This document shows, piece by piece, positions 5,189 to 43,960 of a DNA stretch of 49,443 nucleotides. Origin of the DNA: a bacterium. Lineage in GTDB: Bacteria > Patescibacteriota > Minisyncoccia > Moranbacterales > UBA2206. How positions within the stretch are numbered: position 1 is the first letter of the stretch; the number at the start of each line of letters is the position of its first letter. A program made the translations under genes and the position numbers. The stretch is from contig JAKQLJ010000017.1 of the NCBI GenBank assembly GCA_029567195.1, forward strand, positions 1 to 49,443, given 5' to 3'. Below the pieces are notes generated by a model. That model had not been told where the DNA came from. It did no database searches and saw only the letters and a list, made by a program, of their open reading frames with translations.

Positions 5189-7321
5189 TTATTCCAAATG
5201 AATATGTTTTGAAAACCTTTCAAGTTCGTCTGCCAAAAGCGGATGTTTTTTTAATCGGGGATCAAGATGCATGATGCTTTGCGCTTCTTCACGGGCGCAC
5301 TTAACAAGTCGGATATTGGTAAGATTTTCCATAGTGATGTCAGGCAAACCTGATTGCAGAGTCCCAAAAAATTGTCCGGGACCCCTAAGCTCAAGATCGA
5401 TTTTGGAAATTTCGAAGCCGTCATTGGTTTTTTCCATTGCCTTGAGCCGGGAAACGGATTTTGTAGAAGAATTTTCCGTGAAAAGAAAACAATACGACTG
5501 ATGTTCTCCTCGGCCGACGCGGCCGCGGAATTGATGAAGCTGAGACAGGCCAAACCTCTCGGCATTTTCAATGATCATTACAGTGGCATTAGGGATATCA
5601 ATTCCGACTTCTACGACTGAAGTAGAAACCAGGATTTGAGTTTTTTTGTTTTTAAATTCCTTCATAATCTTTTCTTTTTCTTTGGCTTTTAACCGGCCAT
5701 GCATAAGACCGATTTTAAATTCGGAAAATATTTCAGATAATTTTTTATACTCTTCAGTGGCGGCCTTGACTTCAGACAAGACTTTTGATTCCTCAACCAG
5801 CGGAAAAATAACAAAAATCTGCCGACCAGAAGCAATCTCATGCCGGATAAAATTATAAATTTCTTTTCGTCCGGCCGGAGTGACGATCTTAGTGACGATC
5901 GGTTTTCTGTTGCGCGGCATTTCATCGAGAATCGAGAGGTCCAGACTGCCAAAAAAGGCAATAGCCAAAGTTCTTGGAATAGGGGTGGCGGTCATAGTGA
6001 GGAGATGGGGAATGGTATTATTTTTACCGTCACTTATATGCATAGTTTCACCCTGAAGCATAGCGCGTTGAGCGACACCGAAACGATGTTGCTCATCGAT
6101 AATAACCAAGGCTAAATTTTTGAATTTCACGTCTTTTTGAATCAGGGCGTGAGTGCCGATAACCAGATTTGTTTGGCCGGTGGATATTTTTTGGAGAAGA
6201 CCACTTCTCTTTTTATCATTCTTATGAAAGCGAGAATCCAGACTGGATCCCCGATCAGGTCGGGGATGACAATTAATAAGTTTATACGAATTAGTCAGCA
6301 ATGCAATATTAAAATCATAATTTTCAAACAGCTTACAAAAGCTTTCAAAATGCTGGCGTGCCAAAACTTCCGTCGGCGCCATAATAGCCACCTGAAAACC
6401 TGAAGAAATAGCCTGGAGAGATGAAATGGCGGCGACAATAGTCTTTCCCGAGCCAACGTCTCCTTCCAACAGCCGGTTCATCGGTTTGGATTTTTCCAGA
6501 TCCTTTAAGATTTCAAAGGAAGCTTTTCTTTGGGCGTCGGTTAATTTGAATGGCAGACGGGACACAAAATTTTTAATGAGCTCTTCCTCGAATGATATTC
6601 TTATGGAATTATTTTTATCCCATTGGTTTTTTATTTCCAGAGCCTTAAGCTGAACCAGGAACATTTCCTGGAAGGCGAATCGTTTTTGCGCTCTGATAAG
6701 CTTTTCTTTAGAATCGGGAAAATGAATTTGACTTAGGGCGGTATGAATATCATAAAGGTTAAATTTTTTCCTGATTTCAACCGGTAGGACATCGGGAATT
6801 TCACGGGCTGAAATGAGAAGCGGTTTTATCTGCCAACGGATCCATTTGGAAGAAATACCCGAGGTTTCGCTATAGATCGGAACCAGCCTGCCGGTGTTGG
6901 TTGCGTCCCGCGAAGCTTTTTCCCAAGCAGGACTGTTCATTGAAAAATATTTTCCGCGAATTTCCAATTTTCCTGACAATCTGACAATCGCTCTTTCCTT
7001 AAGGCTTTCCAAAATAAAAGGCTGGTTGAACCAAACGGCTTTTAGAGGTGTGCCGTTCTTATCTTGTAAAGTAATTTCAACAACGGTCATTCTGCGCTTA
7101 AAAATACGATTCAACTTCGTTTTTGTTATTTCTCCTTCAACTGTCACGCTTTCACCCAGATGGTCCTGGCTCAGTTCGACGGTTTTAGAAAAATCATCAT
7201 AACGAAAGGGGAAATAAAAAAGGAGATCCCGAACCGTCAGAAGGCCCATTTTTTCTAAAACCTTCTGGTATTTGGGAGTTATTTTGGGAATGGATTTTAG
7301 GGGGGAATCTGGACGAATCAT
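5189..7321 (-). CDS. recG: ATP-dependent DNA helicase RecG
   Basis: GDVGSGKT, IIDEQHRFGV, TATPIPRTLA, RGRVGRGEHQSYC motifs; wedge OB domain at the N-terminus. Confidence 0.97.
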   Translation of the reverse strand: MIRPDSPLKSIPKITPKYQKVLEKMGLLTVRDLLFYFPFRYDDFSKTVELSQDHLGESVTVEGEITKTKLNRIFKRRMTVVEITLQDKNGTPLKAVWFNQPFILESLKERAIVRLSGKLEIRGKYFSMNSPAWEKASRDATNTGRLVPIYSETSGISSKWIRWQIKPLLISAREIPDVLPVEIRKKFNLYDIHTALSQIHFPDSKEKLIRAQKRFAFQEMFLVQLKALEIKNQWDKNNSIRISFEEELIKNFVSRLPFKLTDAQRKASFEILKDLEKSKPMNRLLEGDVGSGKTIVAAISSLQAISSGFQVAIMAPTEVLARQHFESFCKLFENYDFNIALLTNSYKLINCHPRPDRGSSLDSRFHKNDKKRSGLLQKISTGQTNLVIGTHALIQKDVKFKNLALVIIDEQHRFGVAQRAMLQGETMHISDGKNNTIPHLLTMTATPIPRTLAIAFFGSLDLSILDEMPRNRKPIVTKIVTPAGRKEIYNFIRHEIASGRQIFVIFPLVEESKVLSEVKAATEEYKKLSEIFSEFKIGLMHGRLKAKEKEKIMKEFKNKKTQILVSTSVVEVGIDIPNATVMIIENAERFGLSQLHQFRGRVGRGEHQSYCFLFTENSSTKSVSRLKAMEKTNDGFEISKIDLELRGPGQFFGTLQSGLPDITMENLTNIRLVKCAREEAQSIMHLDPRLKKHPLLADELERFSKHIHLE
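6215..6278. repeat. Palindromic dispersed repeat inserted in frame in recG
   Basis: CCCCGATCAGGTCGGGGATGAC core; encodes CHPRPDRGSSLDSRFHKNDKK in RecG. Confidence 0.75.
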
Positions 7322-8243: not shown

Positions 8244-8316
8244 TGCGCTTAGCAGGAATTGAACCTGCGACCTTCTGGACCGCAACCAGACGCTCTATCC
8301 ACTGAGCTATAAGCGC
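8244..8316 (-). tRNA. tRNA-Arg (GCG)
   Basis: RC: GCGCTTATAGCTCAGTGGATAGAGCGTCTGGTTGCGGTCCAGAAGGTCGCAGGTTCAATTCCTGCTAAGCGC; acceptor GCGCTTA/TAAGCGC. Confidence 0.92.
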
Positions 8317-8467
8317 TTTTTATTTTTGTAAATCAACGGGATTTATCCGCCTCTGGCAAAATCTTCTGGACCCGTCTGCTTCGCGATTCAACTTATTAAT
8401 GGAATAATTTTAAACTTTATTGTTTATTAATGATATATCAATTAAATAGTTAACTCTTGCTGGCAGG

Positions 8468-8548
8468 CCGCAACCAGACGCTCCCTGCCTGCATGCCTAA
8501 CGGCATGTAAACCGGCAGGCAGGTATCCACTGAGCTATAAGCGCTTTT
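8468..8548 (-). pseudogene. Truncated tRNA-Arg 5' half interrupted by a 40-bp palindrome
   Basis: ccgcaaccagacgctc + [8484-8523 cctgcctgc...gcaggcagg] + tatccactgagctataagcgctttt, identical to the intact tRNA outside the insert. Confidence 0.85.
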
Positions 8549-43128: not shown

Positions 43129-43261
43129 CTATGATCGGTTTTTGTATAAATTACTATTGAAGACTTGTGGAAAAACTCAATGCGTTATTTATGAAGCCAG
43201 TGAAAGTTGACATAGGACCAGTCAAGCGCTAAAATAAGGGATAGTTTTTATATATACATAT

Positions 43262-43347
43262 AGTGGGGTGGAGCAGTTCTGCCTAACGGCAGACAAGCTG
43301 TCTGACTCGCGTGGCTCACTTGCCTGCCGATAGGCAGGTAACCACGA
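43262..43347 (+). pseudogene. Truncated tRNA-fMet 5' part interrupted by two palindromes
   Basis: agtggggtggagcagt + [tctgcctaacggcaga...] + tcgcgtggctca + [cttgcctgccgataggcagg] + taaccacga versus the intact gene at 43590. Confidence 0.82.
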
Positions 43348-43361
43348 ATAAATAAAATATA

Positions 43362-43628
43362 ATGTATAAGATATATGTGTTGTTTTTTAATAAAAACGTT
43401 TATACCAGAATGACATCGGATTTAAGCAGAAGAACCAAAGAGCATCAGAGAGGTAAGGTAAGATCAACAAGAAACAAGGGGAAATTTGTTGCTAAAGTAA
43501 TAGAAGAGTGTGGAGACAGAAAAATAGCCAGGAAAAGAGAGAAATATTGGAAATCAGGTTGCGGGAAAGAAAAATTAAAAAAACTATATAGCGGGGTGGA
43601 GCAGTCTGGTAGCTCGCGTGGCTCATAA
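43362..43628 (+). CDS. GIY-YIG nuclease-family protein, C-terminus encoded by tRNA-fMet
   Basis: MYKIYVLFFNKNVYTRMTSDLSRRTKEHQRGK...KREKYWKSGCGKEKLKK; second GIY-YIG motif looks degenerate. Confidence 0.8.
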   Translation: MYKIYVLFFNKNVYTRMTSDLSRRTKEHQRGKVRSTRNKGKFVAKVIEECGDRKIARKREKYWKSGCGKEKLKKLYSGVEQSGSSRGS

Positions 43629-43663
43629 CCACGAGGTCCTGGGTTCAAATCCCAGCCCCGCAA
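43590..43663 (+). tRNA. tRNA-fMet (CAU)
   Basis: GCGGGGTGGAGCAGTCTGGTAGCTCGCGTGGCTCATAACCACG..., initiator-like unpaired first position (A1.A72). Confidence 0.93.
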
Positions 43664-43725
43664 CATTTTTATAAAATATAAAACATACGGTGTGTTTTTG
43701 TTTCTTTTTGCGTTACATAAAAAAT

Positions 43726-43777
43726 GCCGGCGTAGCTCAGTTTCGGCCATAGGCCGACCAGCCTATGGCTGGGGTTA
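43726..43777 (+). pseudogene. Truncated tRNA-Met(CAU) 5' fragment interrupted by a 30-bp palindrome
   Basis: gccggcgtagctcagtt + [tcggccataggccgaccagcctatggctgg] + ggtta; intact copy begins at 43792. Confidence 0.82.
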
Positions 43778-43791
43778 TAAATTTGTATAAT

Positions 43792-43865
43792 GCCGGCGTA
43801 GCTCAGTTGGTTAGAGCGATGGACTCATAAGCCATAGGTCAGAGGTTCAAATCCTCTCGCCGGTA
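43792..43865 (+). tRNA. tRNA-Met or tRNA-Ile2 (CAU)
   Basis: Acceptor GCCGGCG/CGCCGGT, loop CTCATAA; elongator Met versus lysidine-Ile not resolved. Confidence 0.88.
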
Positions 43866-43960
43866 CTAAAATTTTTTAGGGGCGTAGCCCCGACGTAAAA
43901 ATTCTCTACCTGTCGGCAGACAGGCTTTGGAATTAACGGGACAAGCAGTTGATTGTGTAT

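Follow-up and report, generated by a model that had tools for sequence, protein, structure and literature searches.

Phage T4 encodes SegB, a free-standing GIY-YIG homing endonuclease located among tRNA genes, which cuts within tRNA genes at RAWTSGAAC (PMC13096335). This motif reads as the complement of T-loop sequence. In CPR bacteria, GIY-YIG ORFs have been found in non-intron insertions of the rRNA genes, and short insertions without an ORF at the tops or bases of stem-loops (PMC11270868); that report makes no mention of tRNA and describes no second, replacement gene copy. Various families of palindromic repeats, such as REP/RAYT, the Rickettsia palindromic elements, the mitochondrial GC clusters and the double-hairpin elements, are likewise short, dispersed and hairpin-forming and insert cleanly within genes. 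In the part of the literature that was covered, neither GIY-YIG cassettes within bacterial tRNA genes nor palindromes within pieces of tRNA were found to be described.

Here we describe a locus at which such a palindrome splits a displaced tRNA gene copy. The window, i.e. the whole stretch of 49,443 nucleotides that was analysed, is contig C16 of its own genome, G000 (829 kb, 54 contigs). Those relatives for which a named record exists are metagenome assemblies, each from a different species; among them, G018 is 'Candidatus Moraniibacteriota', JAUXSI010000044.1. G000 is thus most likely of the Moranbacteria type, within the Patescibacteria (CPR).

The displaced tRNA-Arg(GCG) copy

The intact gene and the pieces of the displaced copy are arranged on the minus strand as follows.

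8243/8244..8316, minus strand: intact working tRNA-Arg(GCG) (ARAGORN and Rfam RF00005, 73.9 bits)
8334..8372, minus strand: third, decayed piece of the displaced copy, consisting of GGTCCAGAAG and a T-arm with its own GCC..GGC hairpin (from alignment to the outer copy of G018)
8373..8467 (95 nt), minus strand: ORF-free, AT-rich sequence where the copy breaks off in the anticodon loop (after nt 37); missing from the orthologous copy of G018
8468..8483, minus strand: nt 22-37 of the displaced copy, from the 3' strand of the D-stem to the anticodon loop, 16/16 match to the intact gene
8484..8523, no strand: 40-bp palindromic element between nt 21 and 22 (D-loop/D-stem junction), with perfect inverted repeats of 9 bp at its termini and a hairpin inside; relatives are split at this bond as well
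8524..8544, minus strand: nt 1-21 of the displaced copy, from the 5' strand of the acceptor stem to the D-loop end, 21/21 match to the intact gene

A preliminary description of this DNA had read the arrangement as an upstream 5' half of the tRNA gene, identical to the intact gene and interrupted cleanly in the D-arm, between GGATA and GAGCG, by an element with 9-bp perfect terminal inverted repeats. An insertion into a displaced tRNA-Arg copy is indeed supported by the analysis. The displaced sequence and the intact gene are identical at 37/37 nucleotides, zero bases are missing at the insertion, and the coordinates and the terminal repeats of the element were recovered as described; to the latter can be added an inner hairpin, ATGCC-taac-GGCAT. 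With breaks at bond 21/22 and in the anticodon loop and a third piece after these, the displaced copy was longer than half a gene and has been broken three times. The third piece aligned to its G018 counterpart, with the GCC..GGC hairpin in both, at a local score of 28, against a maximum of 16 in 500 shuffles. In the orthologous copy of G018, nt 22-47 are uninterrupted and the AT-rich stretch is lacking. What the preliminary description missed altogether were the nested replacement tRNAs and the GIY-YIG ORFs treated below.

The region between the two tRNA-Arg copies (8317-8548) holds no ORF of at least 80 aa, and hence no tyrosine or serine integrase. A group I intron core was not found, and an Rfam scan of the window yielded tRNAs only. 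We are highly confident that the displaced copy is a dead relic into which a palindrome was precisely inserted.

The palindromic element and its distribution

Folded alone, the 40-bp element reaches -23.2 kcal/mol (z = -4.1), a value equalled by 0/200 shuffles. It consists of a common 20-bp palindrome, CCTGCCTGCCGG/CAGGCAGG (CCTGCCTGCCGGCAGGCAGG), the middle of which holds a hairpin of 20 nt; G018 carries the plain 20-mer at the very bond that holds the 40-mer in the window. The long element occurs three times in G000, each time in tRNA debris: in the window tRNA-Arg(GCG) copy, in the T-loop of a tRNA-Lys piece on contig C4 (reverse orientation) and, as a shortened derivative, in a tRNA-Arg(TCT) copy on C4 at the bond between GGATA and GAGC. 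Four copies of the element in the genus of G018 are embedded in AT-rich intergenic sequence. On C4 (L006, 3720-4245) we also observed a tRNA-Lys(CTT) inside the D-arm of a broken tRNA-Lys, the T-loop of which holds an element of the window's 40-bp type.

The plain 20-mer is present in 23/34 genomes of the family, with up to 18 copies. The preliminary description had suggested mapping the element against tRNA fragments throughout the genome. Read in context, 11/59 sampled copies of the 20-bp core fit a tRNA across the junction (score at least 12), compared with 0/189 control sites; in the best nine of these 11 the break lies in the D-loop, the anticodon loop or the T-loop. As the majority of the 20-mer copies are located outside tRNA, the association is one of enrichment and is not exclusive. 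Outside tRNA the preference for hairpin loops is weak (a stem of at least 5 in 27% versus 12%, p = 0.02). The palindromes may select the loops of hairpins and not a short sequence. The stricter statement that all insertions lie in loops was dropped, as bonds 12/13 (Asn, Glu) and 28/29 (Asn) are in stems. Of 379 genomes sampled throughout the phylum, two had the insertion in its CC..GG form, both from the order of the window. Separately, a recG-like ORF in the window (5189-7321) contains an in-frame stretch, CHPRPDRGSSLDSRFHKNDK, that resembles a translated REP-type palindrome within a conserved helicase.

The same bond is split in other genomes and tRNAs

Bond 21/22 is split in tRNA-Arg(GCG) of G000, G018, G012, G016 and G040, and also in tRNA-Arg(TCT) (G000, C4) and tRNA-Arg(CCT) (Ignavibacteria, L103). 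The equivalent bond is split in tRNA-Asp of G020, where it is numbered 22/23 because the D-loop is longer. G040 and G020 are from different families, yet the palindrome at this bond is an identical 32-mer, CCCGCCCGTACCGAACGGTACGTTCGGGCGGG, in tRNA-Arg of the former and tRNA-Asp of the latter. Another palindrome, the 30-mer TCGGCCATAGGCCGACCAGCCTATGGCTGG, splits bond 17/18 in three genomes, namely in tRNA-Met (window), tRNA-Val (L181) and tRNA-Asp (L197). Because this bond is also hit in a number of other genomes and in other tRNA species, the insertion cannot be attributed to chance, and because it is common to independent metagenome-assembled genomes it is not an assembly error of a single genome.

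A comparison with a genome that lacks the insert, which had likewise been proposed, is provided by G016 and G025. These belong to the same genus, and both have a broken tRNA-Arg, orthologous and with the same anticodon-loop hairpin. G016 carries a palindrome at bond 21/22, and in G025 the site is empty (GTGGATAGAGCG); nothing has been lost or duplicated, in agreement with the clean insertion in the window.

When 84,980 genomes were searched for TAGCTCAGTGGATA-gap-GAGCGTC, this returned 24 loci, three of which are real insertions (G018, G040 and the Ignavibacteria locus L103). The remaining ones were discarded as 18 ordinary tRNAs with GAGCGTC further along and three unrelated chance sites.

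GIY-YIG ORFs beside tRNA genes

Two further cases of broken tRNA copies beside intact genes are found in the window, the first of which includes a GIY-YIG ORF.

43258..43347, plus strand: 5' copy of tRNA-fMet, broken; its D-loop and its anticodon loop contain hairpins
43362..43628, plus strand: GIY-YIG endonuclease ORF (88 aa) between the broken and the intact tRNA-fMet (PF01541, 1.3e-7 on 43362-43583); its 3' end overlaps the tRNA
43590..43664, plus strand: intact tRNA-fMet, downstream of the GIY-YIG ORF
43726..43777, plus strand: broken 5' piece of the next tRNA-Met, split at 17/18 by TCGGCCATAGGCCGACCAGCCTATGGCTGG; same 30-mer and site in L181 and L197

The broken tRNA-Met piece ends 14 bp before the intact tRNA-Met (43792), and this stretch (43726-43866) has no ORF.

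The arrangement in which a GIY-YIG ORF is preceded by a broken 5' copy and followed by the intact tRNA recurs in G000 for tRNA-Gln (C33), besides tRNA-fMet in the window, and in L103 for tRNA-Arg. In L103 a 44-bp direct repeat, formed by 11 bp of upstream sequence and nt 1-33, flanks the ORF. ORFs of this type are present in 31/34 genomes of the family. Among the 123 that were examined, being the better-scoring of the matches listed, 44 have an intact tRNA on their own strand, no more than 160 bp downstream, and none has one on the opposite strand; the other 79 loci lack a downstream tRNA. A piece of the locus' own tRNA, defined as at least 12 exact nucleotides from the first 45 nt of that tRNA, lies upstream of the ORF at 22/44 of the tRNA-adjacent loci, against 1/352 in a control with tRNAs of other identity. 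An outer 3' remnant has been kept at 7/44. The residues Y5, Y16, G18, R26 and E62 are conserved at 99% or more in 119 GIY-YIG sequences, so that the cassettes show the domain with the catalytic Tyr, Arg and Glu of GIY-YIG homing endonucleases, and region 8317-8548 has no ORF. The link with GIY-YIG thus holds for the general pattern and not for the tRNA-Arg copy in the window. At the tRNA-Arg(GCG) locus itself, a GIY-YIG ORF is found in G014.

Inverted repeats of at least 12 bp surround 23/78 of the GIY-YIG ORFs away from tRNAs (control 3/312) and 2/44 of those at tRNAs. Six of the loci away from tRNAs (L195, L196, L204, L216, L224 and L255) have the ORF within inverted repeats of 19-21 bp (e.g. 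CCCCGCACTAACTTTTGCT) and constitute compact candidate mobile cassettes.

Broken shells and nested tRNAs

By the criterion of our script, pieces of the own tRNA lie up- or downstream of tRNA-Arg(GCG) in 15/38 of the genomes that have the gene, a count that would be raised by L034 and L040, which were judged by eye. Close relatives, e.g. G002, a member of the G018 genus, lack the pieces. At L051, L042 and L282 the intact gene sits within the broken one, between inverted repeats; the layout of L051 reads ...GGTCGCAGG/cacgccccacaccaaat-tRNA-atttggtgtggggtg/aaattcctgctaagcgcac. In G014 (L207, C121:1-1300), tRNA-Arg(GCG) is present in three layers, one inside the other, the acceptor stems of which differ, and a GIY-YIG ORF lies upstream.

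The inner and outer tRNA-Arg(GCG) of G000 are of the same type. In G025 (L270, C39:2900-4900) the inner tRNA-Arg(GCG) is clearly diverged, with D-loop, anticodon stem and acceptor stem all different, and the outer one, split near nt 46, is of the usual family type. For this reason, the live gene of G025 looks like an incomer, and is a candidate for a natural tRNA replacement.

Origin of the displaced copy

We consider it somewhat more probable than any other origin taken together that the displaced copy is debris of the invasion and replacement of a tRNA gene, which the palindromic element entered later at its preferred bond 21/22. The invaders of tRNA genes in this bacterial order would be compact units with a full replacement tRNA, which either stands alone between inverted repeats or follows an ORF of ~85 aa for a GIY-YIG endonuclease. 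Such a unit would disrupt the resident gene, the function of which would pass to the tRNA brought in, so that the cell survives. The broken gene would persist as displaced pieces and, because these are free of selection, they would gather more palindromic elements, mostly in the former tRNA loops. The association of ORF, tRNA and own piece suggests that the GIY-YIG protein may cut tRNA genes and drive their replacement. The window copy may have arisen by an invasion of this type as well, to which the neighbouring ORF in G014 points at this locus.

Against this origin speak the lack of an ORF between the two copies in the window, the 79/123 GIY-YIG loci with no tRNA downstream, the location of most 20-mer copies outside tRNA, the small share of loci with an outer 3' remnant (7/44) and the weak loop preference outside tRNA. 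The main point left over by the invasion and replacement of the tRNA gene is the perfect conservation of nt 1-37. These are still 100% identical, although the ORF adjoining the tRNA-Arg(GCG) locus has only 68% identity between the window genome and G018. A neutral relic of such age would be expected to have diverged, and therefore needs to be complemented by a recent origin, gene conversion or selection, each of which could account for the identity.

Ordinary decay is a possible, but distinctly less probable, origin of the copy. A tandem duplicate of tRNA-Arg(GCG), generated by slippage or unequal recombination, would have lost its function and then received REP-like palindromes moved by a Y1/RAYT transposase, with neither an endonuclease nor a replacement tRNA being involved. 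In line with this, the Y1_Tnp domain (PF01797) is encoded in 11/18 relatives, including the own genome (weakly there; the genes lie on contigs C21, C38 and C8), the copies of the 20-mer are mainly outside tRNA, the spacer is without an ORF, and GGCAGGCAGG is found also within TCATTCCCGC-type repeats. It leaves unexplained, however, why GIY-YIG ORFs are sandwiched between a tRNA and a piece of that same tRNA (22/44 versus 1/352), and how a diverged tRNA came to be nested in a native one (L270).

We think it improbable that the 5' half and its hairpin constitute a selected leader, kept for a role in the transcript or the DNA, e.g. as a leader against misfolding, a nuclease decoy or a lock against recombination between repeats. 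The identity at 37/37 nt while the third piece decays, and the same D-arm insertion bond in the orthologous copy of G018, would fit such a role, but gene conversion from the adjoining intact gene would yield equal identity, and the structure is missing in G002 and in most of the family.

No bacterial tRNA-splicing enzyme is known that would suit such a site. That the displaced copy still works, as a functional split or intron-bearing tRNA or with a hairpin removed by RNase III as in rRNA intervening sequences, is highly unlikely in view of the decayed 3' half, the intact tRNA that always adjoins and the in silico excision of the 20-mer, after which ARAGORN recognized a tRNA at 0/63 copies, even though the hairpins are mainly in loops, the exons are unchanged, and the short insertions in CPR rRNA at the top or base of stem-loops include some that match RNase III-cut 23S intervening sequences (PMC11270868).

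Starting from invasion and replacement, a more specific and rather speculative scenario can be envisaged, to which we give slightly less weight than to ordinary decay. A tiny GIY-YIG cassette would break an essential tRNA gene and supply a working tRNA of its own, which would keep the host from losing the cassette. Repeated rounds of such a 'cut and replace' drive would produce nested shells like those of G014 and G025, the palindromes would be structure-seeking satellites landing in tRNA loops, and the window copy would be an old shell.

Genes for tRNA are usually treated as stable and essential. Here, in bacteria whose genomes are very small, they seem to be targeted again and again, being disrupted and then replaced on the spot. 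Invasion and replacement would account for the tRNA debris around tRNA genes and give a role to the many small GIY-YIG ORFs beside them, and would be a natural parallel to engineered cut-and-rescue elements. Moreover, as one fixed bond is used in several tRNA species, the choice of target is directly testable.

Comparison with known systems

The window element agrees with REP/RAYT in being a dispersed imperfect palindrome with terminal inverted repeats. What sets the present case apart from the palindromic repeats listed at the outset is that a given palindrome is found again at a given bond in different tRNA genes, in dead copies beside a live one. Integrative elements that use tRNA genes for attachment also leave a displaced tRNA fragment beside a restored intact gene, but here there is no integrase, the units measure a few hundred bp and it is mostly the 5' part that is displaced. 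The nearest functional parallel is SegB, in that the gene of a GIY-YIG nuclease lies beside tRNA genes. The present ORFs differ from it in being bacterial, chromosomal and ~85 aa long, with a broken tRNA copy before and an intact tRNA after them. Finally, the insertions in CPR rRNA genes share with our case the kind of bacteria, the GIY-YIG ORFs and the short insertions without an ORF at stem-loops, and the replacement tRNA copy is the feature of the present one.
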